In this document: positions 3,072 through 27,458 of the stretch, in pieces
Layout of the letters: each line of letters begins with the position of its first letter
Numbering within the stretch: position 1 is the first letter of the stretch
Source: a virus
Strand: one strand, 5' to 3'
Length of the DNA: 27,458 nt
IMG/VR virus record: IMGVR_UViG_3300042197_004934
Location: 1 to 27,458 of that record
Position numbers and translations under genes: made by a program
The notes under the pieces: model-generated
Seen by the model: only the letters and a program-made list of their open reading frames with translations
What the model was told of the DNA's origin: nothing
Database searches by the model: none

Positions 3072-3593
3072 ATGTTAAATGGAAAATATGAATACTCATC
3101 GGTCCACATAGAGGCTCCCTGCAATCTATCAAAAAAGATTATCGACTGGGGAATTAAAAATATTCAGGATAACGATCTTTATTATTCTAAAAAAAAAGAA
3201 GTTAATTTTGGAAGAGAAGATGAAATTCATGTGACAATTTTATATGGAATCCACTCTGATTGTCACAAAAAAACAACAAATATAATAAAAGATTATGGAC
3301 AGGTTAATTGTTGTTTAGGAGAAATTAAAATATTTAAAGATCCAGAGGATTATGATGTAATTGTGATAGATGTTTTGAGTGAAGATTTGTTTAAATTAAA
3401 TGAATTGGTTATTAAAAACATTAAACACACAAACAAATACAAAACATACAAACCTCATCTGACAATAGCCTATGTAAAAAAAAATAAAAATTGGGACAAA
3501 CTAAACAAAGATTTTTTTAAAGATATTAAATTTACTTCTAACCACGCAGTTTTTTCATCCAAAAATGGATTGAAATATGGATTTTTCCTCTAG
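3072..3593 (+). CDS. 2H phosphoesterase (2'-5' RNA ligase / cyclic phosphodiesterase-like)
   Basis: The 173-residue protein has the two H-x-T motifs that define the 2H phosphoesterase superfamily: HVTILYG with H53 and HLTIAYV with H129, spaced as in the usual two-lobed fold. Family members hydrolyse 2',3'-cyclic phosphates or 2'-5' linked oligonucleotides, or open cyclic nucleotides. Phage members include T4 57B (Acb1), which degrades the cyclic oligonucleotide signals of CBASS immunity, so a counter-defence role is a reasonable hypothesis; RNA end processing is the alternative. No Shine-Dalgarno is evident before the ATG. The 3' end overlaps the convergent minus-strand gene by 39 bases. Confidence 0.85.
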   Translation: MLNGKYEYSSVHIEAPCNLSKKIIDWGIKNIQDNDLYYSKKKEVNFGREDEIHVTILYGIHSDCHKKTTNIIKDYGQVNCCLGEIKIFKDPEDYDVIVIDVLSEDLFKLNELVIKNIKHTNKYKTYKPHLTIAYVKKNKNWDKLNKDFFKDIKFTSNHAVFSSKNGLKYGFFL

Positions 3594-3989
3594 AGTTGGA
3601 TTCCATAAAGAAGATGGAGATCTTTTTTTGTATTGTTTCAACCCCTGCATCCTATAAGACCAGTAATCTTCGGCCTGTTTTTTGCTATAATTGTATTTAT
3701 TTTTTAGTTCTTCTTCACAATCTTTAAAATCACATGACCAAAATATAATTTTATAATATTTACATAGGTGTTTCATGGTGAAATCTTTATTGTGGAAAAC
3801 AACATCGACCCAAACACTCACAGAACTGTTGCGTCTGTGAATTTGAGATGTGAGTAACAAGGTGTCTGTTGGGTGTTTATAACTATTACCAGTTTCAAAA
3901 ACTTGAATATAAGAATTTTTTTCTAATAATTTTGATAATTTTTCCCAACCAGAACCTAAGTGCGTCATTATAAACAATGTGTTGTGCAT
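3555..3989 (-). CDS. Short sulfotransferase-like P-loop protein (tentative)
   Basis: A 144-residue minus-strand protein. Its N-terminus has a strand then THLGSGWEKLSKLLEKN (9-25), resembling the 5'-phosphosulfate loop of PAPS-dependent sulfotransferases. The later layout also recalls that fold: VDVVFHNKD, then YYKIIFWSCDF, then a helix with A-E-D-Y-W-x-Y-R near the C-terminus. It is much shorter than usual sulfotransferases (250 or more), so it may be a minimal or degraded member. A second, clearer sulfotransferase is at 21618-22355. It is convergent with the 2H phosphoesterase gene and divergent from the portal gene. The assignment is from pattern only; an unrelated nucleotide-binding protein is possible. 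Confidence 0.55.
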   Translation of the reverse strand: MHNTLFIMTHLGSGWEKLSKLLEKNSYIQVFETGNSYKHPTDTLLLTSQIHRRNSSVSVWVDVVFHNKDFTMKHLCKYYKIIFWSCDFKDCEEELKNKYNYSKKQAEDYWSYRMQGLKQYKKRSPSSLWNPTLEEKSIFQSIFG

Positions 3990-4070: not shown

Positions 4071-6653
4071 ATGTGGTGGGATTTTTTTAAAGTATTTACA
4101 TATGCCTTTACTGAAGATCCTTTGTCAGAAAAGAACAAAAATGTTCTCACAGGTGCTGGCGTTTCGCAACTTGATGCAATACCTGATTTAAGATCAGGAA
4201 ATGAGGGATCAATAGGTGGCGGCACATCAATTAGACTAAGAGATACAAATGATTTTGTTGATCTTTCCACCGTAACAAATAGGATTCATCGATATAAAGA
4301 GTATGAAAGACTCAGAAATATGCCAGAAATTGAAATGGCAATGACAGTTTTTGCTGACGAAACCTGTCTTTCTGGCGACACAAGGGTTTCTACACCACAA
4401 GGCATGAGAACACTAAAAGATTTAGCGGAGAACGAGAAAGAAAGATTTCTTGTTTATTGTTATGACTTTGATAAACAAGACTACACCTTGGGTTGGGCAC
4501 ATAGTGCCAGAAAAACCAAAACAGCTAAAACTATAAAAATTATATTTGATAATGGAGATCATGTGGTATGCACACCAGACCACATGATCTTAAACGCTAA
4601 TGCCGAATGGGTTTTGGCCGGAAGTTTAAAAACGGGCGATGAGTTGATGCCCTTTTATAGAATTGAAGCAAATCCAGATTTGTCAAATAGCAAGGTAAAT
4701 CAATTCCCAAGAATTTATTCAACTGTTCATGGATGGATACACGAAAGACAATTTATTGATCAATGGAGAACCGGCAAGATACCAGAAGAGTTACAAACAC
4801 TAAACAGATATTGCCGGATGATAGCAGATGGTTTAAACATTCGACAGATTAAAAAAATTACACACAATCAATTCAAAACTGTTCGTGATAGGTTGGCGAA
4901 ACATGGTTTTTCAAACAAAGAACTAAAATGGCTTGGCACAAAATCAAAAACAAGACGAGTGGTTTCAGTATTTGATTATAAAGAAATGGACGTATACGAC
5001 CTATCTGTAGATGATCACAAAAATTTCGCTACGGAGTGGGGTATAGTTCACAACTGTCAGAGAGACGATTCTGGTAGGGCGTTTCAAATACACACAAAAA
5101 ACAGTGATGCAAAAGAAGAACTTGAATTTTTATTCTTTCACAAAAAGATGTTAAATTTTGACCAGAAAAGAATTTGGAATTTAGCAAAATTACTTTTTAT
5201 TTATGGTGATTTTTTCTATGAAGTTATCATAAATCCAGAAAACCCATCAGAGGGAATTTACAATCTTATACCGCTTCCTGCTGATTCAATGTATAGATTA
5301 GAAACCACCAAAGGCAAACTGTTGGAATTTCAACAGTCAAAAGAAGGACCAGATTATCAAAGTTTGGCAAACGTTGACATAACTCAGGCCACGGATGCCG
5401 ACTTGCAACAATCTACAGCCATTCGATTTGCTCCTGAGCAAATCGTACACATTCGAATTGGAGATGATAGAAAAACTTTTTATCCTTACGGCGTTTCTTT
5501 GATGGAAGCAGCAAGAGGTCCAGCACATCAATTACGATTAATGGAAGACGCTATGGTTGTTTATAGATTATCAAGATCTCCAGAGCGAAGAGTTTTTTAT
5601 ATAGACGTTCAACAATTGCCACCATACAAGGCCGAAGCTTTCATAGAGAGAATGAAAGATCAATTCAAGAAAAAGAAAGTCCCTAGCACAGGTCGAGCAC
5701 CCGGAGCCTCGTCTGTTGAGGAAAGATGGCAAACCCCTGCTGTTGATGAAGATTTTTGGATTCCAATTCGTCCTAATGCAAACACCAGGGTGGAAACGCT
5801 TCCTGGAGCAAGTAATTTAGGGGAAATAGACGATGCTCTTTATTTCAGAAACAAATTATTTACAGCACTAAATTTTCCAAGAAATTATTTTAACAACGAA
5901 GATGTTAACAGCACCAGAATAGCCTTATCTGCTCAAGATGTAAAGTTTGCCAGGATGATTGAAAGATTACAAAGTCATATCGAAGATGCTTTATGGGAAG
6001 TCTGCAATCGTCATCTTAGATTACAAGGGTATCCTGAGGAGTCTTATGATGATCTTGCTGTTAAGATGACTCCGCCCTCGGATTGGCGTGAACTCACAAG
6101 GGCGGAAGTGGTTACAAATCGTTTAAATAATGCTTCAAACTTAAAGAGTGCTATGTTACTTAGTGATTATGACATACTAACAAAGTGGCTCAAATATAGT
6201 GATGAAGAAGCCAAACAAATGATAGCAAGATTGAAAATTCAAAAACTTGATGATCTTAAATTGCAAATTGTTGCACAAAATCCTACACTATTGGGAGTTG
6301 GATTGCCAAATCCAAACGAACCAGAAATAGGAACAGATCCAGGTGGACCAAACCCAATGTTGGCACCAGATGCTGGTCAACAAATGCCACCAGATGCTGG
6401 TCAACAAATGCCACCAGATGCTGGTCAACAAATGCCACCAGATGCTGGTCAACAAATGCCACCAGATGCTGGTCAACAACCCGTTCCAGGAATGAAAAAA
6501 TTCATGGATACAGATAAGCAAGTTCCAAAGTCTGGTAGTGGAATGCCAATACCAGATGCTTCTGAAGAGGATATTAAAAAATATAACTTAGACATTAAAG
6601 ATTTTGAAAAAGAGATGGATGAAGAAGAAGTTGACATGAGTGAAAACCTATGA
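4071..6653 (+). CDS. Portal protein (T4 gp20-like) precursor containing an intein
   Basis: Forms the portal ring at the head vertex through which DNA enters and the tail joins. The 860-residue precursor holds an intein at residues 99-328; the spliced product is about 630 residues (T4 gp20: 524). Portal hallmarks in the exteins: RIHRYKEYERLRNMPEIEM before the intein, then RVFYIDVQQLPPYKAE, EDFWIPIRP, VETLPGASNLGEIDDALYF and KLFTALNFPRNYF. The C-terminus adds five PDAGQQ repeats (from 6366) and an acidic tail ending DEEEVDMSENL. GGAG at 4060-4063 precedes the ATG. The stop overlaps the next gene by ATGA, implying translational coupling. Confidence 0.96.
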   Translation: MWWDFFKVFTYAFTEDPLSEKNKNVLTGAGVSQLDAIPDLRSGNEGSIGGGTSIRLRDTNDFVDLSTVTNRIHRYKEYERLRNMPEIEMAMTVFADETCLSGDTRVSTPQGMRTLKDLAENEKERFLVYCYDFDKQDYTLGWAHSARKTKTAKTIKIIFDNGDHVVCTPDHMILNANAEWVLAGSLKTGDELMPFYRIEANPDLSNSKVNQFPRIYSTVHGWIHERQFIDQWRTGKIPEELQTLNRYCRMIADGLNIRQIKKITHNQFKTVRDRLAKHGFSNKELKWLGTKSKTRRVVSVFDYKEMDVYDLSVDDHKNFATEWGIVHNCQRDDSGRAFQIHTKNSDAKEELEFLFFHKKMLNFDQKRIWNLAKLLFIYGDFFYEVIINPENPSEGIYNLIPLPADSMYRLETTKGKLLEFQQSKEGPDYQSLANVDITQATDADLQQSTAIRFAPEQIVHIRIGDDRKTFYPYGVSLMEAARGPAHQLRLMEDAMVVYRLSRSPERRVFYIDVQQLPPYKAEAFIERMKDQFKKKKVPSTGRAPGASSVEERWQTPAVDEDFWIPIRPNANTRVETLPGASNLGEIDDALYFRNKLFTALNFPRNYFNNEDVNSTRIALSAQDVKFARMIERLQSHIEDALWEVCNRHLRLQGYPEESYDDLAVKMTPPSDWRELTRAEVVTNRLNNASNLKSAMLLSDYDILTKWLKYSDEEAKQMIARLKIQKLDDLKLQIVAQNPTLLGVGLPNPNEPEIGTDPGGPNPMLAPDAGQQMPPDAGQQMPPDAGQQMPPDAGQQMPPDAGQQPVPGMKKFMDTDKQVPKSGSGMPIPDASEEDIKKYNLDIKDFEKEMDEEEVDMSENL
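4365..5054 (+). mobile_element. Intein in the portal protein, endonuclease motifs absent
   Basis: A 230-residue in-frame insertion with class 1 splicing signatures. It starts with C1 (CLSGDTRVSTPQG), has a block B with T-x-x-H (CTPDHM, T168/H171 of the precursor), a block F (VYDLSVDDHKNFA) and ends VHN followed by Cys329 as the +1 nucleophile. The middle (about 190-305) has no LAGLIDADG or HNH motif. It does hold a helix-turn-helix-like stretch (ADGLNIRQIKKITHNQFKTV), which may be the remnant DNA-binding part of a lost endonuclease. All splicing residues are present, so splicing should be active. It sits at ADET/CQRDD in the portal. Confidence 0.93.
6366..6479 (+). repeat. 24-bp tandem repeat in portal C-terminus
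   Basis: Four identical 24-base units beginning ccagatgctggtcaacaaat (6366, 6390, 6414, 6438) and a fifth partial unit (6462-6479) encode PPDAGQQM repeated. Identity at the DNA level, including third codon positions, points to recent expansion by slippage or unequal recombination. The segment is a flexible Pro/Gln linker near the portal C-terminus. Confidence 0.95.
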
Positions 6654-7393: not shown

Positions 7394-9214
7394 ATGAGAA
7401 GAAGACTCATTAAGCAAGATGCCTTTGATAAAATCGTAAACGAATCTGTTTCCGCAGTTAAACGTGAACTTGTTGCAGCAGAGCCGATTTTGGCAAAAGC
7501 AGTGGATAAAACCTATCTTCGTCTGAAATCATTCACAGAATCAACAGTTCTCTACGAATCTGCCGAGGACACTTTTGTGCATGCTGGATATGAAGTTAAA
7601 AATGGACAACTTACCTTCAACAACGTAGAAGAATTAGTCGTTGACGAAGAATCACAAAAAGAAAAACGTAAAACAACGCTCTCAGAGATGATCGACGCTG
7701 TTTTAATTGATAACAACGATAAAGCCAATGAATTGTTTGATAATTATGTCGGCATGATACGTTGGAATGAAGCCAAGAAAAAAGAAGAAGATTCCGAAGA
7801 TGAAGATGAAGATATGCCAGCTTTCTTGAAAAAGAAAAGCAAAAAAGAAAAGAAATTACCAGCTTTCTTGAAAAATAAAAAGAAGAAAGCAAGCAAAAAA
7901 CATGACGAAGAAGAGAAAAAAGAAATCGTCAAGAAAATCAAAAAATCCGATAAAGATCTTGCAGAAGCCTATGTTACTTCTCAAAATGTTTTAGAGTATG
8001 TTGAGTTTATGAAGGTTGGCCCAAGTCTCGCAGAATCAACTGTTAAAACCGACGAGAATGGTAACCTTACCAACATCAAGATCCCAACCAGTAAGGTTCG
8101 TAACGAAAACAGAATGTTACGAAGTGATTGGAAGGGTTTAAATGCAAAAGTTGCTGAAACCAGAAACAAAGTTGCTGGCCTTGTTGAAAATCAAGAATTT
8201 TGCAAAGCAGTTGCTGTGTTGAAGAGGCAAAATGCTTTTGCTGATGCACAAGGACTTGAGGAGGCTTTGGAGGTTGTTGTTCAGCAATATCCAGAAGTTC
8301 TTTACGCAACCCAATCCGAATTAGCCGAAGTTGTGAAAGAGGCCCTAGAAGTCGTTGGTGCCACAAATTTTGATGACAAGGTTTGCGAGTTCATGGCCGA
8401 AGGCATCTTGAGAAAAGCACACGATGCCTACTCTGAAAAGGTTTCCCAAGTACTACACCTTGCCTCTGCAAACAAAGTAGAAGAAGGTGTTGATCCTTAC
8501 TCTTTCTTCCAATCTGTGGTCGAGAAATTCTACCCATCATTGGATGAAAAATTTGGATTGGAACGCAAAGTTTTTAGCGATCTCTATGAATCACTTGAAG
8601 TTGTTTACAAGAAAGCCGAACGCAAAGGCGTCAAATCGGTCATGAATGAAACTGCATCTTATCTCAACGATCTGGCTGCTGTTTTAAACAACGAAGTTAA
8701 ACCCACTTTAGAAATCGCTGAGGAAACAGCCGAGTATCTTGCTTTGCTAATCGAAACCAATCTCGAATCAGGAATTTGGGTTGTTTCTAACAAACCACAC
8801 GAAACTCTTAATGGAGATCATCCAGAGATGAGCAAAAAGGCTGCTCATGGATATGCTCCATCAAAAGACTTCTCTGGCGATTACGGCGATCCTCTCCCCG
8901 CAGTAGGATCAGATGATATGCGTTACAAGGGTGGCAAACACTCAAAAGAAATGAGAAATAAAGGCATGGGTCAAGAAGGCGGAAACGATGTTTTCCCAAG
9001 CCTTAAGAACCCTTATGTGCCAACTCCTTTCGGAACTTACACCATGAAAGGTGAAAAAGGAGTTGATAAAGATAAAGGCGACTTGCTGAGCGGATCCAAA
9101 GACACTTTCCCAAACCTGAAAAACCCTTACGTACCAAAAGAAGAGGTTGGAACAGGCGGAAAAGGTTACAAAATGAATCACGGCAAAGAAAAGGATTTAG
9201 TTGTTGACAAATAA
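7394..9214 (+). CDS. Probable prohead core / internal head protein, 606 aa
   Basis: I do not recognise the family. It sits between portal and prohead protease, where T4 has core genes 67 and 68, and leads the operon to the capsid gene, so a prohead core or internal head role is inferred. RBS GAGGAG is at 7381-7386. The N-terminal third ends in an acidic run (EEDSEDEDEDM, about 131-141) and a strongly basic 14-residue duplication, PAFLKKKSKKEKK then PAFLKNKKKK. The middle (about 190-470) is long and helical. The C-terminus has two copies of FP(S/N)LKNPYVP in a Gly/Lys-rich tail. The alternating acid and basic blocks suit DNA- or scaffold-contacting core proteins. Confidence 0.75.
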   Translation: MRRRLIKQDAFDKIVNESVSAVKRELVAAEPILAKAVDKTYLRLKSFTESTVLYESAEDTFVHAGYEVKNGQLTFNNVEELVVDEESQKEKRKTTLSEMIDAVLIDNNDKANELFDNYVGMIRWNEAKKKEEDSEDEDEDMPAFLKKKSKKEKKLPAFLKNKKKKASKKHDEEEKKEIVKKIKKSDKDLAEAYVTSQNVLEYVEFMKVGPSLAESTVKTDENGNLTNIKIPTSKVRNENRMLRSDWKGLNAKVAETRNKVAGLVENQEFCKAVAVLKRQNAFADAQGLEEALEVVVQQYPEVLYATQSELAEVVKEALEVVGATNFDDKVCEFMAEGILRKAHDAYSEKVSQVLHLASANKVEEGVDPYSFFQSVVEKFYPSLDEKFGLERKVFSDLYESLEVVYKKAERKGVKSVMNETASYLNDLAAVLNNEVKPTLEIAEETAEYLALLIETNLESGIWVVSNKPHETLNGDHPEMSKKAAHGYAPSKDFSGDYGDPLPAVGSDDMRYKGGKHSKEMRNKGMGQEGGNDVFPSLKNPYVPTPFGTYTMKGEKGVDKDKGDLLSGSKDTFPNLKNPYVPKEEVGTGGKGYKMNHGKEKDLVVDK

Positions 9215-9233
9215 TAATTAAGGAGCAGACACA

Positions 9234-9929
9234 ATGGATCAGATGTTACTCATCGATTGCTGTGCTAGCTCTGGATTCGAACTACAACTTAGTGAGTCCG
9301 CTATGAAAGGTGGACTCACTAAATTTCGTGGCAAGTTCCAAGAGGCTGAAGCAGTAAATAAAAATAAAAGAATGTACCCTTTTGATGTGCTAAGTGAAAA
9401 CATTGGCCGTCTTCAAGAGGCAATAGATGATCGTAGACTTGTTGGTGAGTTAGATCACCCAACAGACTCTATCATACATTTCGCAAATACATCTCACGTA
9501 GTTACCAAACTATGGTGGGAAGGAAACGTTCTCATGGGCGAGGGCGAAATCCTAAACACACCGTCTGGTATGATTTTGAAAAGTCTTATTGATGGCGGCG
9601 TTAAAGTTGGTATCAGTTCAAGGGGAGTTGGTAATGGAAAGGTGAACGAAGATGGCATTCTTGTCATCGGTGAAAGTTACAAACTTATCACATTCGATGC
9701 CGTTGCAGATCCCAGCACTTTTGCTGCATTCCAAGAAAAAGTCGTTGCTAAAGGTGAGAGTTTTAATCCTCAAGTTAAAGAGCAAATTCGTAATTCACAA
9801 CAAAAATCAAAAATTGCTATGAAAAATGAAAGCTCCGGCATACATAATGTTAACAAAGAGGTATTGATCGCTTACTTAAGCGGCTTTGTAAAATCTCAAA
9901 CACAAGAAATTAAGTCGAGGTTAGGCTAA
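9234..9929 (+). CDS. Prohead protease (T4 gp21-like)
   Basis: Serine protease that matures the prohead by cutting scaffold, internal proteins and capsid protein after (L/I)-x-E in T4. The 231 residues (T4 gp21: 212) show KRMYPFDVL (about 45-53), catalytic His75 in GELDHP, the serine motif GISSRG (126-131; S128 or S129) and FDAVADPS with D155/D159. This is the order H, S, D of the T4 prohead protease family. AAGGAG precedes the ATG. The stop TAA overlaps the scaffold ATG by one base, coupling protease and scaffold translation. The C-terminal 50 residues are basic and probably a removable propeptide. Confidence 0.94.
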   Translation: MDQMLLIDCCASSGFELQLSESAMKGGLTKFRGKFQEAEAVNKNKRMYPFDVLSENIGRLQEAIDDRRLVGELDHPTDSIIHFANTSHVVTKLWWEGNVLMGEGEILNTPSGMILKSLIDGGVKVGISSRGVGNGKVNEDGILVIGESYKLITFDAVADPSTFAAFQEKVVAKGESFNPQVKEQIRNSQQKSKIAMKNESSGIHNVNKEVLIAYLSGFVKSQTQEIKSRLG

Positions 9930-10870: not shown

Positions 10871-12316
10871 ATGAACGCACGTTTCCTCAACGAAGCACGT
10901 GAGATCGAGACCAGATGGTCCAAGCCTCTTCGTAACGGCAAGTCGATGCTTGACGGCATCACCGACCGCTACGAGAGAGCTTCTGCCGCTGTTCTTCTCG
11001 AAAATCAACGTCTTATGAACGAAGCTATGACCGACACCGGTGACATTTCGCAATTCAAAAGAATTTCGATACCACTCGTCCGTCGTATCTATCCACAATT
11101 GATCGCCAACAAAATCGTTTCGGTCCAACCATTACTTGGCCCAACCGGTTTGGTCTACTATCTCCGTTTTAGATACTCTTCAAACAAGGGTGCTATGCGT
11201 GGTGCTGACCTCAATAGCGGCTATCCAAGCGACGACGCAACATCGTTACAACAACTTGCTAGCGGTGATGGCAATTTAGATATCTTCTACACACATCAAT
11301 TTGTTCAAAATGAAACAAGTTCGACTGATGCTGGCGGAGATACAACTTCGGTGTACGCTCCACTTGAGCACACCCCAGTTCTTGCCGGAACCTTGACTGG
11401 CACCGTTTATGACGGCACAATTGCTGTTCAAACATTTGTTGTTGCTGAGAATGGAACTTTCACCTTCACCGACATCGGTACTCCTGCTGCCAAAGCAACT
11501 GGCGGTACTGTTGATCTCGTGACCGGCGAAATGACCCTTACTTGGAACAGCGATCCAGGTGCTAACAGTGTTGTTATGTCGTATGAATACAACATGGAAT
11601 GCAACCAAGATTTGCCAGAAGTGAATCTCGTCGTGGAAAGCGAAGAAATCGCTGCCAAGACCCGTAAACTGAAGGCTGCTTGGAGCTATGAGGCTCAACA
11701 AGACCTCCGCTCACAGCATAACCTCGACGCCGAGGCTGAACTCACTGCCGTTTTGGCACAAGAGATCAATCTCGAAATCGACCGAGAAGTGCTCACGGAT
11801 TTGCGTAACAACGCAGGTACGGTTGCTGTGTGGGATTTCAATACTGCTCTCGGTGACACCATCAAAGAGAAGTATGAATCACTCTACGTGAAGGTTGTTG
11901 AAGTCAGCAACGTTGTGCATCGTAAGACACTTCGTGGTGGCTGCAACTGGCTCGTGACTTCACCTGAAGTTGCATCAGTTTTCGAAACTGCTACAGCCGG
12001 TTTTGCACCAGCACCAAGTGAGACTTTCACAAGTTCACTCGGCATCCAATATGTTGGCACAATCAACAATCGTTGGAGACTGTATAAGGATCCATTGTTC
12101 CCACAAGGTCAAATCCTCATGGGCTACAAGGGCGACAGCTACATGGACAGCGGATACTTCTACTGCCCATACGTGCCACTCACCCAGACCCCAGTCGTAC
12201 TCGACCCAGAATCCTTCTGCCCACGCAAGGGAATCCTGACTCGATACGGAAAGAAATTATTGAGGGAAGGGGCAAAATTTTATGCCAGAATGTCCATCGC
12301 CAACTTTATCGTTTGA
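10871..12316 (+). CDS. Major capsid protein (T4 gp23-like)
   Basis: Forms the capsid hexamers. The 481 residues (T4 gp23: 521) carry the family core LVRRIYPQLIANKIVSVQPL and TGLVYYLRFRYS (about 75-105), WSYEAQQDLRSQHNLDAEAEL, GGCNWLVTSPEV and the C-terminal KDPLFPQGQILMGYKGDS. The N-terminus (MNARFLNEAREIE) should be removed at maturation, probably after LLE44 or MNE51. A beta-rich segment (about 167-240) rich in Thr, Gly and Val looks like an inserted surface domain. AAAGAGGG precedes the ATG. The codons are C-rich (CTC, ATC, TTC, AAC) compared with the AT-rich neighbours, as expected of a very highly expressed gene. A strong terminator follows. Confidence 0.96.
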   Translation: MNARFLNEAREIETRWSKPLRNGKSMLDGITDRYERASAAVLLENQRLMNEAMTDTGDISQFKRISIPLVRRIYPQLIANKIVSVQPLLGPTGLVYYLRFRYSSNKGAMRGADLNSGYPSDDATSLQQLASGDGNLDIFYTHQFVQNETSSTDAGGDTTSVYAPLEHTPVLAGTLTGTVYDGTIAVQTFVVAENGTFTFTDIGTPAAKATGGTVDLVTGEMTLTWNSDPGANSVVMSYEYNMECNQDLPEVNLVVESEEIAAKTRKLKAAWSYEAQQDLRSQHNLDAEAELTAVLAQEINLEIDREVLTDLRNNAGTVAVWDFNTALGDTIKEKYESLYVKVVEVSNVVHRKTLRGGCNWLVTSPEVASVFETATAGFAPAPSETFTSSLGIQYVGTINNRWRLYKDPLFPQGQILMGYKGDSYMDSGYFYCPYVPLTQTPVVLDPESFCPRKGILTRYGKKLLREGAKFYARMSIANFIV

Positions 12317-12360: not shown

Positions 12361-12395
12361 GAAACCGCATGGGGAACCATGCGGTTTCTTTTTTA
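12361..12395 (+). terminator. Rho-independent terminator after the capsid gene
   Basis: A perfect 12-bp stem (gaaaccgcatgg / ccatgcggtttc), four-base loop ggaa, and a run of T residues. It closes the head-assembly operon 45 bases after the capsid stop. Confidence 0.93.
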
Positions 12396-12424
12396 TACCT
12401 ATTGCAAAATTTGCAGTTCTTTAC

Positions 12425-12438
12425 TATGCTTAAGCATA
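12425..12438 (+). promoter_or_regulatory. 14-bp perfect palindrome beside the RBS of the HNH gene
   Basis: TATGCTTAAGCATA is directly followed by the Shine-Dalgarno AGGAG and the HNH ATG at 12452. It could be an operator bound by a dimer, or an RNA hairpin beside the ribosome site. Nothing in the sequence decides between these. Confidence 0.4.
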
Positions 12439-12451
12439 AGGAGAATTAAGC

Positions 12452-13435
12452 ATGGCAAACAAACTAACACAATCACAAGTCGAACAAGAGTTTCAGGTCA
12501 AGGGCTGTCAGCTTTTATCGGAGTATCAAGGCAATCAAAAATCAATGAAGTATAGGTGTAGTTGCGGTGAAGTGGCACAAACAAGCCTTATAGGGTTTCG
12601 TAATAGCAAGGGCTGCTACAAGTGTTCTGCCGTCAGTGCCGGAAGAAGATTTTCATATGATCAAGTAAAACAGTATTTTAAAGATAATGGTTGTGAATTA
12701 CTTGATTCTAATTATTTAAACAATGAACAAATATTAAACTATAGATGTTTATGTGGCCATATATCTAAAATCAGATTTAGAGATTTTAAAAATGGTAGAC
12801 GATGTTTGAATTGTAGAGCCAAAAAACACTCAGAAAGTTTCCGTACCTCAGATTTGGATCTTAGTACATTTTGCAACAAACATGGTTGCAGTTTGATTCG
12901 CTCTTGGATTCAATGTAAAAGAACTAGAATTGAATACATCTGTAGTTGTGGCAACCAAGCCGAGGCTTATTGGTCTAATTTTACAAGGTTTCCTAATTGC
13001 TGGGAGTGCGGCAAGAAAAAGAAGTCTGGGGCTAACTGTTATATGTATGACCCGGATCGTGACGCAGTTAAGATGCGTAAGCGATTTCGTAAAATGTGTG
13101 GCCAGTTTATTCACCGGTATATGCGGGCCACTTGTGAAAAGAAAACCCGTTATACACATGAATTATTAGGCTACACACCTCAGCAACTTCAGGATCATAT
13201 TCTTAATCATCCCGATATGAATTTATGTGAAGGAAAAGAATGGCATGTAGATCATTATTTTCCGATTCAGGCTTTTTTAGATGCTGGAATCTATGATCTT
13301 AAAATAATTAATTGTTTGCCAAACTTAAGACCAATTCCGGGTCCAGAGAATTTATCAAAGGCCGACAAATATGACGAGGAAGAATTTAAAAAATGGTTAA
13401 AGTTACTAAGTTATTCAAATTGTAGCATAAATTAG
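12452..13435 (+). CDS. HNH homing endonuclease with three zinc-finger repeats
   Basis: A free-standing endonuclease behind the capsid gene, a usual spot for T4-type homing genes. Residues 1-195 hold three similar units with the pattern G-C-x-L...Y-x-C-x-CG...F...C-x-x-C: CSCG..CYKC, CLCG..CLNC and CSCG..CWEC. These are treble-clef-like zinc fingers and the likely DNA-recognition part. The C-terminus is an HNH nuclease: WHVDHYFPIQAF with H265 and H268, NCLPNLRPI and PENLSKADKY, the D-H...N...N-x-x-K order. AAGGAG precedes the ATG. The terminator upstream separates it from the capsid operon, so it must have its own promoter. Length 327. Confidence 0.88.
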   Translation: MANKLTQSQVEQEFQVKGCQLLSEYQGNQKSMKYRCSCGEVAQTSLIGFRNSKGCYKCSAVSAGRRFSYDQVKQYFKDNGCELLDSNYLNNEQILNYRCLCGHISKIRFRDFKNGRRCLNCRAKKHSESFRTSDLDLSTFCNKHGCSLIRSWIQCKRTRIEYICSCGNQAEAYWSNFTRFPNCWECGKKKKSGANCYMYDPDRDAVKMRKRFRKMCGQFIHRYMRATCEKKTRYTHELLGYTPQQLQDHILNHPDMNLCEGKEWHVDHYFPIQAFLDAGIYDLKIINCLPNLRPIPGPENLSKADKYDEEEFKKWLKLLSYSNCSIN

Positions 13436-13559: not shown

Positions 13560-15056
13560 ATGAGCAATATAATAATTCTAGAAAAAATACCCGAACCGAA
13601 ATGGATCGCTGAGACATTAAAAAAAGAAAGAGAAGTTGATCCTGAGACTTTCATATTCTTTAAACATGAATGGAATAAAAGATCAGAGCAGATTGTTTCT
13701 CATGTAAATTCTTATTCCCAAGAGCAAAATAAAGTTTATGCTCGAAAATGTGTGGTTAAACAAATAAATCTAAAACTCCACCGGGAGTTTTGTGATTTGT
13801 ATCATATACAAGGTTCAAACAAACTATCCATTGTTTCATTTGGAATATTTTTAAAGGATGAATTGTTGGGCGTGTTGTCTTTAGGCAGACACAACCGAGA
13901 TAGTAAAGCGACCGTTTTAGATCGTTTGTGCTTTAAATCTGGGGTTAGGGTGGTTGGCGGTGCTAGTAAAATGTTTACCAGAGCCAAAGAATGGGCATTG
14001 GAAAAAGGAATATGCTCCATAATAAGCTTTAGCGACGAGCGGATGAGTACTGGTGGCATATATGAGAAATTAAACTTTTCTTTAGATTGCATATTGCCGC
14101 CTGATTATGTTTATTTAAAAGAAGATAATATAAACGTATTTCATAGCAAACAAAGCCAATGTAAAAAGTTCACAGGCTGTCCTTCTGACATAACGGAACG
14201 GAATTGGGCCAAACGCAAAGGGTTGGTTCAGGTTTTTGATGCCGGTAAAAAACGATGGATCTACAAACTGCGTTTGGAGCGGCAAGTTCCATTAAAAAGT
14301 AGAAGGCAGGGATATTATGAGACCAAAAAAGCCAATCCAAAAATTATGTATTATCAATCTAGTTACGAACTAAAAGCAGCCGTAATTTTAGATGAAAATG
14401 AAAATGTAAAATCTTATGTAAACCAGCACACGTTCTGTGTGGATGGAAGAGAACGAATAACTGACTTTGTTGTGTACTGGAATGATGGAAGTGTTACAAT
14501 TTTAGAAATCAAACCAGTGCGTAGGCTTGAAGAATTTAAAACTCAGATAGAAGACAATAAACATTATGCAAAACAAAACGGATGGAAGTTCGAGGTTTGG
14601 ACCGAGGAAAATTTAGGCTTTAAATCTGAACATTACGCAACAAAATGGGCTGATGAGTTTATTTCGAAAATAGCCGATGTTGATTTTGTTAAAGAAAGAA
14701 AAGATAGAAATTTATCTAAGGCCAAAAAATATTATCAGTCCCGTATCGCTAACGATAAAGTCGAAGTTTATTGTGAATATTGCAAAGAAACCCACAATCC
14801 GCTTCGTTTAACTTATGATCGAAATATCGTTCGTAATGGTCGATATATTTGCGAACGAGAAGGCGGGCATATATCTGGCAGCAAACCCAAGCCGCATCTT
14901 AAAAAGATTAATCCCTACGAATCAGAGGGCAAGAAAGAATGCAAATCCTGCCACTCTGTTCTTTCACTAGATTTATTCAGTGCTGGTAAGAGTGTCTGCA
15001 AGAGTTGTAGGGCCGAGAAGTATAAAGTAAAATATAGAGACAAAAAACACTTGTAA
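13560..15056 (+). CDS. GNAT domain-TnsA-like nuclease-zinc ribbon fusion, probable homing endonuclease
   Basis: A 498-residue multidomain protein. The N-terminal part (about 75-195) looks like a GNAT/Mom-like acyltransferase: FGIFLKDELLGVLSLGR, RLCFKSGVRVVGGASKM, YEKLNFSLD. A linker with VQVFDAGKKRWIYKL follows. The centre is a PD-(D/E)XK nuclease of TnsA type: E270 in SSYELKAAV, D302 in ITDFVVYW and E316-I-K318. The C-terminus has a Cys pair CEYC and a zinc ribbon CKSC-x15-CKSC. GNAT-like plus nuclease fusions of this kind occur in phage genes regarded as mobile, and the neighbour is an HNH homing gene, so homing is the favoured role; a DNA-modification role for the GNAT part is the alternative. 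A terminator overlaps the stop. Confidence 0.8.
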   Translation: MSNIIILEKIPEPKWIAETLKKEREVDPETFIFFKHEWNKRSEQIVSHVNSYSQEQNKVYARKCVVKQINLKLHREFCDLYHIQGSNKLSIVSFGIFLKDELLGVLSLGRHNRDSKATVLDRLCFKSGVRVVGGASKMFTRAKEWALEKGICSIISFSDERMSTGGIYEKLNFSLDCILPPDYVYLKEDNINVFHSKQSQCKKFTGCPSDITERNWAKRKGLVQVFDAGKKRWIYKLRLERQVPLKSRRQGYYETKKANPKIMYYQSSYELKAAVILDENENVKSYVNQHTFCVDGRERITDFVVYWNDGSVTILEIKPVRRLEEFKTQIEDNKHYAKQNGWKFEVWTEENLGFKSEHYATKWADEFISKIADVDFVKERKDRNLSKAKKYYQSRIANDKVEVYCEYCKETHNPLRLTYDRNIVRNGRYICEREGGHISGSKPKPHLKKINPYESEGKKECKSCHSVLSLDLFSAGKSVCKSCRAEKYKVKYRDKKHL

Positions 15057-20379: not shown

Positions 20380-21060
20380 ATGTTGCACGAATTATTGTAT
20401 GATGACCGTGCCGCTGGTTTTTGTGATCGCTTTGTTCATTTGTTTGTATTGTTGGACATTGCACGCCAAAATCAAAAATCACTTCATTGCTTTTGGCGTA
20501 AAAACTACGCTTGTAGAGGCCACTTTTTAGATGTTTTCGAACCAATTAATGATGTGATATTTCTAAATTATCCATTAAATATAACCAAGTTTAAAAAGAT
20601 TCCTTGGAGAAATATCTATAAAATAAATTTTTGGAAAGATTTGGTATTAAAAAAATCTATAGAAAAAGAAATACATGATTTTAAAAATTTTTTAAATTAT
20701 GATTACATTGCCGTACATGTAAGAAGAACCGACAAGATGGATCCCAAGTTGGGGATTAAAAATATAACGACTGATGAGCAATTTTTTAAATTTATTGACG
20801 ACAACAAAAAAAATAAAAAGATATTCTTAGCGACAGATAATTCTCATACACAAAAAATTTTTAAAAAAAGATACGGTGAGGATTTGTTATTTTATTCTAA
20901 TATAGTTGATGTTAAGGGCAACACAAGAAACACAAGTTTCACAAATAGCATTATTGATTTTTATCTTTGTATAAATAGTCAAAAATTTCTAGGAAGTCAT
21001 TATTCTTGGTGGCATTTTTTTATAAATAAAATTAGAGAAAACAAGTTTAAAAATTTATAG
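20380..21060 (+). CDS. Fucosyltransferase-like glycosyltransferase
   Basis: A 226-residue protein with the H-x-R-R-x-D motif typical of GDP-fucose-using GT-B enzymes (GT11/GT23 type): VHVRRTDK at 112-119. Other family-like parts are an N-terminal DDRAAGFCDRFVHLF, IFLATDNSHTQKIFKKRYG and a C-terminal NSIIDFYLCINSQKFLGSHYSWW. It is short for the family (about 300), so the N-terminal acceptor domain is reduced. The start at 20380 has a strong RBS, AAGGAGG; an earlier ATG at 20342 opens only an overlapping frame. It starts a block with a sulfotransferase, suggesting decoration of a glycan on virion or host surface. Sugar donor is inferred from the motif only. Confidence 0.82.
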   Translation: MLHELLYDDRAAGFCDRFVHLFVLLDIARQNQKSLHCFWRKNYACRGHFLDVFEPINDVIFLNYPLNITKFKKIPWRNIYKINFWKDLVLKKSIEKEIHDFKNFLNYDYIAVHVRRTDKMDPKLGIKNITTDEQFFKFIDDNKKNKKIFLATDNSHTQKIFKKRYGEDLLFYSNIVDVKGNTRNTSFTNSIIDFYLCINSQKFLGSHYSWWHFFINKIRENKFKNL

Positions 21061-21078
21061 CCAGCACTCCTTTAAAAT

Positions 21079-21630
21079 GTGAGTTGTCCAAAAGAAAAAT
21101 ACTTTAAAGATATTGATCACAAAAAAGTTCTGGAATACATGTTTGATCAATCCTGTGCTTCCTCTTTTGCCAAAGGATCAATTGTTGAATTAAATTTTAT
21201 AGATCAAATGGAAACGAAGGGCTACAAATTAAAAAAGATTAAAGATCATGATAAGTCTAAAAGATATGATTTTTTGGCAAACAAAAATAATGAAAAAATT
21301 ACCTTTGAAGTAAAAACAATAAAAGAAAGTTTGTCGGTCGATGTTGGGTACAAAGACCCTAGAAAAATCATCCTTCCGTCAGGAAAGGTGTGGTCCACAA
21401 GAAGTCGCCATATTAATGAGCGTTTTGACTTTTTAGCGGTGTGCCTAGTTAATTGTGACAAATTTACAATAAAAGACTTTATTTACATTCCATTTGAAGA
21501 AATCCCGAAAATCAAAAAAAGAAAATTTACAAAAGAAGATTGTGATTTTGTTGAATCAAAATATCTTGCTTTGAGTTTTAGTTTAAAAAAATGCGAATTT
21601 AAAAATGTAAATAAATTATGCTTTTTGTAA
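21079..21630 (+). CDS. PD-(D/E)XK nuclease-like protein
   Basis: A 183-residue protein whose middle has the restriction-endonuclease pattern: KGSIVELNFIDQMETKGY helix, then YDFLA with D64 and, 12 residues on, FEVK with E77 and K79. The later FDFLAVCLVN fits a core strand. These agree with a PD-(D/E)XK core, but I cannot name a family. The start is uncertain: GTG at 21079 has no clear RBS, and ATG at 21139 (20 residues later) keeps the whole core. The gene lies between glycosyltransferase and sulfotransferase genes and overlaps the latter by 13 bases. Its partners there do not explain a nuclease role. Confidence 0.65.
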   Translation: MSCPKEKYFKDIDHKKVLEYMFDQSCASSFAKGSIVELNFIDQMETKGYKLKKIKDHDKSKRYDFLANKNNEKITFEVKTIKESLSVDVGYKDPRKIILPSGKVWSTRSRHINERFDFLAVCLVNCDKFTIKDFIYIPFEEIPKIKKRKFTKEDCDFVESKYLALSFSLKKCEFKNVNKLCFL

Positions 21631-22355
21631 ATTCTGACTGTGCTAAAAAAGTTTTTATAATTGGAGTTGCTAGATCTGGGACTTCGCAACTTGCAAAAAT
21701 TTTTACAAACCACCCATTTTTAAAAGGTTTGTCTTTTGAAAAATTTAATCTAAATTCAAAAAATTTAGATTTGTCTATAGCCACAGAGAATCAGACAAAA
21801 CTATATTTTAATTATATGTTTGATCGTTATGATGTTTTTAAAGAAATAATGCTTAACGATAAACACAACAAAGCTGTGAGAAATTATTTTTTTTCTACAA
21901 ATATCAACAAAATTGTAATTTATAGAAAAAACAAACTGAGACAGTCTATTTCGCATATATTTTCAAAAAGATCGCAAATATGGCACCTGACTGAGGCTGA
22001 TCGAGGCATTTACGAAAATGAGATAGAGGGTATTAAAATTTCTTTAAATGAAGTTCGAAGCACATTAAATTATATTAAATTTCAATATGAACTTTTGTTT
22101 AAAGAATTGAAAGAAAAAAAATATTTTTTGGTTGTTTATGAAGATCTTTTTTTTGACAAGATTGAAAATCAAAAATTGCTTTTAAAAAATATGTTTGATT
22201 TTTGTAATTTAAAATTTGATAGTAACAATAAAAAAATTATAGATCTATTGTGCAATGGAAGAGTCAACTCCAACGATACTTATAAAAAAATAATTAATCA
22301 CGAAGAAATAGAAAAAACATTTGGCAATGAAGAAAATGGATTCTTATTTAAATAA
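21618..22355 (+). CDS. Stf0-like sulfotransferase
   Basis: A 245-residue protein with the PAPS-binding signatures of sulfotransferases. The 5'-phosphosulfate loop is IIGVARSGTSQLAKIF (14-29) and the 3'-phosphate region is VIYRKNKLRQSIS (100-112), whose R-x-x-x-L-R-Q-x-x-S form is like that of trehalose sulfotransferase Stf0. VVYEDLFFD (about 172-180) is a conserved core strand in the family. It would move sulfate from PAPS to a hydroxyl, probably on a sugar; together with the fucosyltransferase-like gene 0.6 kb upstream this suggests a sulfated glycan. Start overlaps the preceding gene by 13 bases. The next gene is convergent. Confidence 0.85.
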   Translation: MLFVNSDCAKKVFIIGVARSGTSQLAKIFTNHPFLKGLSFEKFNLNSKNLDLSIATENQTKLYFNYMFDRYDVFKEIMLNDKHNKAVRNYFFSTNINKIVIYRKNKLRQSISHIFSKRSQIWHLTEADRGIYENEIEGIKISLNEVRSTLNYIKFQYELLFKELKEKKYFLVVYEDLFFDKIENQKLLLKNMFDFCNLKFDSNNKKIIDLLCNGRVNSNDTYKKIINHEEIEKTFGNEENGFLFK

Positions 22356-26189: not shown

Positions 26190-27458
26190 TTAACCACCAC
26201 TTAATTGTTTAATTTTTTTCATTATTTTTTCTCGGTTGTTTTCAATCAAATCGTTTGAATTATTTGAATTTAACACAAATTTTCCGCCTTTTGGACTTGG
26301 TGGCTTTTTGTGTTTGCTTAAATTATTTATCTTATCGCTTATATTTAAAATTTTGTCTTTTTGCCTTAATGTATCTGCAAGTTTTACAAGACCACCTTGG
26401 GGCAAGGGAGATATTGTGTTGTCTTCTATTGTTTTTAAGTTGGAATCTATATTTGCTGTGTTGAGGTTTAGGATAGTATCCTTTTCTTCTACAGGTGACA
26501 ATTCATTCGAATAAAAATCCCCCAATGATGTAACATATCTAAATACATTATTTTCTAAAATAATTCTTGATATAATAGTTTTTTGTGTACTTAAATTTCT
26601 ACTTACAAAATAAACTTTTTGTCCTATCTCAAATGAATATTTTATATCTCTTAAGAAATTATAAAAATCCATAGTAACAATTGAATAAATAGAAACTTTT
26701 GCTCCGCCCGAAGTGGATATTTCTTGATTTGAAAAACTTGATGGAGATATAGTCGCTCCACCTGATGCTAAGAATACCAAATCAACCGAGGCTGATCCAT
26801 TGATGGTTAAGTTCAAAAATGAAATTATATTATAATCAAAGTAAATTAAAGATGATCCGTTATTGATTGCCCCGCCCATCGAGAGTGGGTTATATTCTAA
26901 TTCAATCTCAGGAATACCACTAGCAAGTGAACCACCACTAACAGCAATATTGTAAACTGCTGTTTCTAAAGCAACACCACCAGCAAGTGAACCTCCAGTA
27001 ACCTCAATATTGTAAACTGCTGTTTCTAAAGCAACACCACCAGCAAGTATTCCACCAGTAACCTCAATATTGTAAACTGCTGTTTCTAAAGCAACACCAC
27101 CAGCAAGTGAACCTCCAGTAACCTCAATATTGTAAACTGCTGTTTCTAATCCAACACCACCAGCAAGTATTCCACCAGTGGGAACAATATTGTAAACTGC
27201 TGTTTCTAATCCAACACCACTAGCAAGTGAACCACCAGTGGGAACAATATTGTAAACTGCTGTTTCTAATCCAACACCACCAGCAAGTATTCCACCAGTA
27301 ACAGCAACATTGTAAACTGCTGTTTCTAATCCAACACCACCAGCAAGTATTCCACCAGTAACAGCAACATTGTAAACTGCTGTTTCTAAAGCAACACCAC
27401 CAGCAAGTATTCCACCAGTGATGGCAATATTGTAAACTGTTGTTTCTAATCCAATACC
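26190..27458 (-). CDS. 3' part of a long repeat protein (fibre-like), running off the window
   Basis: Open from the window edge to the stop at 26190: at least 422 residues with no N-terminus visible. An internal ATG at 26879 (MGGAINNGS) is not the true start, as the same frame continues upstream without a stop. The N-terminal visible part has nine 20-residue repeats of the type GLETAVYNIEVTGGSLAGGV and a degenerate tenth. These are followed by a Ser/Asn/Ile-rich beta region, a segment with FEIGQKVYFVSRNLS and FRYVTSLGDFYSNEL, and a Lys-rich C-terminal tail (KHKKPPSPKGGKF, REKIMKKIKQLSGG). The repeats predict an elongated beta structure as in tail fibres or adhesins; the role is inferred. Confidence 0.82.
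   Translation of the reverse strand, partial: GIGLETTVYNIAITGGILAGGVALETAVYNVAVTGGILAGGVGLETAVYNVAVTGGILAGGVGLETAVYNIVPTGGSLASGVGLETAVYNIVPTGGILAGGVGLETAVYNIEVTGGSLAGGVALETAVYNIEVTGGILAGGVALETAVYNIEVTGGSLAGGVALETAVYNIAVSGGSLASGIPEIELEYNPLSMGGAINNGSSLIYFDYNIISFLNLTINGSASVDLVFLASGGATISPSSFSNQEISTSGGAKVSIYSIVTMDFYNFLRDIKYSFEIGQKVYFVSRNLSTQKTIISRIILENNVFRYVTSLGDFYSNELSPVEEKDTILNLNTANIDSNLKTIEDNTISPLPQGGLVKLADTLRQKDKILNISDKINNLSKHKKPPSPKGGKFVLNSNNSNDLIENNREKIMKKIKQLSGG
26881..27458 (-). repeat. 60-bp coding tandem repeat array
   Basis: Nine units of exactly 60 bases plus one degenerate unit (26881-26940), continuing past the window. The core tgtaaactgctgtttctaa is nearly invariant. Variation is confined to a few sites, giving (A/G)LETAVYN(I/V), then EV, VP or AV, then GG(S/I)LA(G/S)G. 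The variants are shuffled between neighbouring units, which suggests gene conversion or unequal crossing-over. Confidence 0.95.

Follow-up and report, generated by a model that had tools for sequence, protein, structure and literature searches.

Sulfotransferases of phages are known, although their role was stated as unclear (PMC10580990). Sulfotransferases have also been mentioned among the viral auxiliary genes, as have nucleotide-modification systems of phages that use them (PMC10829341). The search phrases tried for the function of phage sulfotransferases matched no publication, and no literature linking huge phages to sulfotransferases was found beyond these two publications. The stretch of 27,458 bp analyzed here (“the window”) is one whole virus record and contains a T4-like head module composed of the genes for the terminase (1-1827), the portal protein (4071..6653, plus strand, Portal_T4, Pfam 3.3e-75), the prohead protease (9234-9929, Peptidase_S77, 6.4e-25), and the major capsid protein (10871-12316). 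The major capsid protein shares 98% identity with that of the IMG/VR contig 3300023179_000009 (458,813 bp; G001 in the following) and 78% with that of LR756511 (595,163 bp), which indicates that the window represents part of the genome of a huge T4-like phage.

The portal protein contains a mini-intein at residues 99-328 (Intein_splicing, 4.1e-13) with the boundaries C99...VHN/C. An intein homologue with 37-94% identity was present in 110 of the 110 related loci that have both portal flanks, including LR756511, and the insert in these loci was nearly always about 690-710 bp in size. The intein seems to be fixed in the portal gene across the whole huge-phage clade, and clade-wide fixation is unusual for inteins. 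A perfect 24-bp tandem repeat unit (MPPDAGQQ) is located in frame at the portal C terminus (6364-6479). Another in-frame tandem repeat, nine copies of a 60-bp unit of the GGVGLETAVYN type, occupies 26916-27458.

The three-gene cassette at 20380-22355

A sequence-only reading of this DNA had proposed a glycan cassette composed of a fucosyltransferase-like gene and a sulfotransferase gene 0.6 kb apart. Both open reading frames are located as described, one for a protein of 226 amino acids (20380..21060, plus strand) with the HVRRTD motif at residue 113 and one for a protein of 245 amino acids (21618..22355, plus strand) with GVARSGTS at residue 16. The gap of 0.6 kb is not empty: it is filled by an overlooked gene, 21079..21630 (plus strand, GTG start, 183 amino acids). 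The product of this gene has weak matches to the nuclease-fold families NOV_C, SfsA, PRK14683, and YraN and carries a D-x(n)-FEVK motif, so that it was listed as PD-(D/E)XK nuclease-fold-like. It is separated from the upstream gene by 19 bp, and its end shares 13 bp with the beginning of the sulfotransferase gene (spacing of −13 bp). This spacing of the three genes is operon-like, and they may be co-transcribed; sigma-70 promoter scans near the cassette and near the gene 3555-3989 gave results at the level of shuffled sequences. G001 possesses all three genes in an identical arrangement, with 92, 93, and 81% identity in the best segments. The dN/dS ratios between the window and G001 were 0.07 for the fucosyltransferase-like gene, 0.11 for the PD-(D/E)XK-like gene, and 0.11 for the sulfotransferase gene, which shows that the first and the last are real genes.

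The product of 20380..21060 is a protein of the fucosyltransferase superfamily, FUT8/O-FucT-like, as judged from Pfam, profile, and motif comparisons. The Pfam matches O-FucT (2.9e-6) and FUT8_N_cat (3e-5) were both just under the curated cut-offs. When a profile of three phage sequences was compared with the PDB, FUT8 chains were the best matches (4.8e-7 to 4.1e-6), followed by POFUT2 (2.3e-4). The motifs HVRRTD-113, ATDN-151, and GSHYSWW-205 occur in the order known from fucosyltransferases, and their equivalents are kept in the locus L002 and in a copy with about 38-39% identity on the contig L008.

Support for the assignment of 21618..22355 as an Stf0/Sulfotransfer_3-like sulfotransferase, predicted from its sequence, is weaker than that for the fucosyltransferase-like protein. 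The protein possesses the motifs GVARSGTS-16 (5'-PSB), YRKNKLRQSIS-102 (3'-PB), and VVYEDL-172. Its match to Sulfotransfer_3 (1.1e-4) was below the Pfam cut-off, with 23.0 of the 27 bits needed, and so was that of the G001 ortholog (2.9e-5, 24.9 bits). A weak match to Stf0 (E 0.11) covers residues 97-126 over the 3'-PB and thus a motif separate from the Sulfotransfer_3 match. A comparison with canonical phage sulfotransferases by hhalign yielded a probability of 90% (1.6e-6) over the 5'-PSB only. The AlphaFold2 model, which was built from an alignment of two sequences only, had a pLDDT of 41 and was discarded as uninformative, and a PDB profile search gave only glutathione transferase noise. 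Neither this protein nor the fucosyltransferase-like protein had a tblastn match among 50,697 phage records, homologues of both were not found in bacterial GTDB contigs by the search method used, and PHROGs and NCBIfam contributed little for the cassette proteins.

The scores under the thresholds and the low pLDDT of the sulfotransferase model leave room for the explanation that one of the assignments, or even both, is incorrect, or that the glycosyltransferase and sulfotransferase folds are retained as remnants without activity. The clade indeed retains sulfotransferase folds without PAPS motifs in the family of the gene 3555-3989. Nevertheless, the catalytic-type motifs are conserved in the G001 ortholog and the dN/dS ratio is about 0.1, so that this explanation is rather improbable. 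As another alternative, both enzymes may hypermodify the bases of the phage DNA, since phage nucleotide-modification systems based on glycosyltransferases and sulfotransferases have been mentioned (PMC10829341). The solved structures nearest to the glycosyltransferase, however, are FUT8 and POFUT, enzymes acting on glycans and proteins, and no gene for the synthesis of a base modification was recognized beside the cassette. A Mom-like domain is encoded at 13560-15056, but it is fused with a TnsA-like/restriction-fold domain in a protein that matches phage homing-endonuclease families. Base hypermodification is therefore the least probable of the alternatives and very unlikely.

Gene turnover needs to be considered next to conservation. 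Among the viral contigs, the sulfotransferase of the cassette was found in none beyond the window and G001, and an additional fucosyltransferase-like gene was found only in L008. There, the fucosyltransferase-like gene has been deleted from its place between the upstream gene and the PD-(D/E)XK-like gene. A 3'-terminal piece of about 80 bp is left of it, which reads FLGSHYSWWYFFINKIRENRFKNL-stop, and the start of the PD-(D/E)XK-like gene is retained, within which the contig terminates. The divergent copy (about 38-39% identity) is on the opposite strand some 3 kb off in another slot. The positions concerned in L008 are 8863-9543 and 12394-12506. The deletion and the divergent copy show that the cassette is accessory and turning over, and that the fucosyltransferase-like gene is not strictly bound to its neighbors.

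As another explanation, the fucosyltransferase-like and sulfotransferase genes may be unrelated accessory genes (morons) that are adjacent by chance, with the fucosyltransferase-like enzyme decorating one glycan and the sulfotransferase acting on a host metabolite, a lipid, or a virion protein. This is the main rival of a common function. It is in agreement with the loss of the gene in L008 that left a remnant, with the different slot and orientation of the divergent copy, and with sulfotransferases of the clade that often have no recognized glycosyltransferase neighbor (L181, L182, and L189). On the other hand, the tight three-gene arrangement was retained in two phages, and glycosyltransferase-sulfotransferase neighbors recur in LR756511. 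Independent morons are thus a possible explanation but less probable than a functional cassette.

Sulfation genes in related huge phages

Phage-encoded sulfation of a glycan had been regarded as rare in the sequence-only reading. This does not hold for the clade of the window, because canonical Sulfotransfer_3 genes are present in four of nine large relatives and phage sulfotransferases have been published (PMC10580990). In the stretches read of one of these relatives, G005 (527 kb), a minimum of seven sulfotransferase genes, which represent four Pfam kinds, was identified. Three of these genes have an APS kinase gene (PF01583, 9.8e-39; L183:1901-2386, G005 positions 151972-152388) at a distance of about 6 kb or less. 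The search of eight other records, G001 included, revealed no APS kinase, so that the phage of the window most likely uses host PAPS.

In LR756511, a sulfotransferase gene overlaps a gene of the RGP family (1.7e-42) by 4 bp, and this pair is followed by the gene for an F5/8-type-C protein and then by a second sulfotransferase gene. At another place in the same genome, only 2 bp separate a sulfotransferase gene from a gene with weak similarity to GT2 (E 0.007, below the cut-off). LR756511 also contains a GDP-mannose-dehydratase-like gene (1.8e-112) and two GT11 matches. Three dehydratase/epimerase matches were obtained in G001, and the identity as GDP-mannose dehydratase was established for none of the three. 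A gene for a Gly_rich_2 protein comes directly after a sulfotransferase gene in G002 (533 kb). Judged by the domain type, the F5/8-type-C and Gly_rich_2 neighbors may be adhesin-like. The pairing of sulfotransferase genes with glycosyltransferase or adhesin-like genes and the APS kinase gene near three sulfotransferase genes in G005 make sulfation in this clade credible.

The superfamily-level identities of the genes, their tight spacing, the purifying selection, the gene turnover, and the glycosyltransferase, sulfotransferase, and adhesin-like neighborhoods in the relatives are established. From these, we infer the co-transcription, the donor sugars, the catalysis, a common substrate, the target, and the benefit of the cassette. 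The region 20380-22355 would be an accessory three-gene operon in the variable region that follows the head genes. The fucosyltransferase-like enzyme would most likely transfer fucose or a similar deoxyhexose from a host-made GDP-sugar onto an extracellular-type glycan, and the sulfotransferase would most likely sulfate a glycan or the glycosylated product with host PAPS. As a net result, either the adhesin of the phage itself or the surface of the infected cell would be decorated with fucose and sulfate. Counted against it are the Pfam scores below the cut-offs, the pLDDT of 41 of the sulfotransferase model, the deletion of the fucosyltransferase-like gene in L008, the search of G001 that revealed neither an APS kinase gene nor a match assignable to GDP-mannose dehydratase, and the fact that no adhesin gene was identified beside the cassette in the window. 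Addition of a deoxyhexose and of a sulfate to a surface glycan of the virion or the host by these two enzymes has, all things considered, an even chance of being correct. The proposed glycan cassette is supported for its two enzymes by the motifs, the operon-like spacing, the conservation, and the neighbors in the relatives, although not for the third member assigned to it, the product of 3555-3989.

A portal-side family with a sulfotransferase fold

The gene 3555..3989 (minus strand) had been seen as a second, minimal sulfotransferase-like gene. It is instead divergent from the portal gene and a short-form member of a clade-core family with a sulfotransferase fold. An alignment search yielded 73 viral loci for this family, some of which share contigs, so that the counts are not all independent. 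A family member is present in 32 of the 35 capsid-defined loci whose sequence covers 700 bp or more upstream of the portal start, always on the strand opposite to the portal gene and mostly within 100 bp of it in head-to-head orientation. The three loci without a member near the portal gene are L035, L029, and L034. In the L035 contig, a family member is present farther away from the portal gene, the L029 contig stops 1.2 kb upstream, and the L034 contig with its 70 kb has no family member. Exactly one copy each was present in nine of the ten records searched as a whole. A gene at 3072-3593 is convergent with 3555-3989 and overlaps its 3' end; it encodes a 2H phosphoesterase above the Pfam cut-off for the anti-CBASS protein Acb1 (3.3e-7) and is kept close to the portal gene in some relatives.

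The AlphaFold2 model of the full-length member L095/L077, built from 73 sequences, had a pLDDT of 95.9. When this model was compared with the PDB by Foldseek, sulfotransferases were on top, and 43 chains had an E value of 0.001 or lower, nearly all of them sulfotransferases. The VIA-align Z scores were 14.5 for CurM of the curacin pathway, 14.2 for TPST1, and 13.3-13.5 for NDST1 over 180-194 residues, compared to 10.7 for the best kinase listed. Comparison of the family with the canonical sulfotransferases of the clade by hhalign gave 96% probability (1.4e-9) over 143 columns. The window protein is 22% identical to L095 and would share the fold modeled for this full-length relative; as a lone sequence, it had no sulfotransferase match and is related through its family only. 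It had no tblastn match among 50,697 phage records, and a match to Ephrin_lbd (8e-4) was attributed to chance because only two of the 73 members showed it. No convincing match of the core family was obtained in Pfam or PHROGs, and the family is apparently new to description.

Use of PAPS by sulfotransferases requires a lysine or arginine residue in the 5'-PSB and an arginine residue in the 3'-PB. The column of the basic 5'-PSB residue in the family is mostly occupied by G, otherwise by H, Y, C, F, A, or D, and K or R were not seen among the residues listed; the window protein has a G at this position. Of the 62 full-length forms, 58 have the 3'-PB arginine, but it is lacking in all 11 short forms, which comprise 10 loci plus the window's own sequence or a near twin. 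The C-terminal helix is also missing in the short forms. His-10 and Arg-114 are invariant in the family, and Asn-67 is nearly invariant. Since the short forms are monophyletic (11 of 11, support 1.0) and under purifying selection with a dN/dS ratio of 0.06, decay into a pseudogene was rejected as an explanation. On the basis of the modeled fold, the motif losses, and the synteny, the product of 3555-3989 is probably a pseudo-sulfotransferase, which has the fold of these enzymes but not their usual chemistry. The family may bind a nucleotide or PAP, or it may contribute to head assembly as a structural component or a regulator.

Together with the cassettes, the multiple sulfotransferases, and the single APS kinase, this portal-side protein may belong to a sulfation program of the clade. 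It would not transfer sulfate itself but may be PAP- or nucleotide-sensing or structural, and it would be further reduced in the sub-clade of the window. This wider interpretation is tentative.

Comparison with known systems

The clade offers concrete genes to probe the role of phage sulfotransferases, which are multi-copy and near glycosyltransferase, adhesin-like, and APS kinase genes, plus a fold homologue beside the portal gene. Should the proposed function of the cassette hold, sulfated and fucosylated glycans of virions or infected cells could originate from huge phages. The core family may be a new pseudo-enzyme with a link to early takeover or to the assembly of the head. In the cassette, known kinds of proteins are combined in a new way; the core fold family and the neighborhood of APS kinase and sulfotransferase genes are more novel.

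The fucosyltransferase-like protein shares HxRRxD, LATD(N/D), and the C-terminal Ser motif, in this order, with FUT8/NodZ (GT23) and POFUT (O-FucT). It differs from them by its length of 226 amino acids with a shortened N-terminal half and by scores below the Pfam cut-offs. The 5'-PSB RSGTS, R-K-N-K-L-x-Q-x-I-S at the 3'-PB, and YEDL are common to the sulfotransferase of the cassette and Stf0/NodH, and NodH was among its weak phmmer matches (E 1.1). Unlike Stf0/Sulfotransfer_3 proteins, it has no significant match over the whole length, and only two sequences were found. The portal-side family has the fold in common with CurM and the tyrosylprotein and heparan sulfotransferases (Z about 14.5-12.4 over 180-197 residues). 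In contrast to these enzymes, a 5'-PSB K or R is not seen in the family residues listed, and the short clade of the window contains neither the 3'-PB arginine nor the C-terminal helix.

Known phage sulfotransferases, such as those of OM43 phages, of the Synechococcus phages S-SRM01 and S-SCSM1, and of the Xanthomonas phage FoX4, are also from tailed phages (PMC10580990; BFVD matches). The phages analyzed here differ from these by the operon linked to a fucosyltransferase-like gene and by a core fold homologue, and the relatives of the window possess multi-copy sulfotransferases plus an APS kinase.
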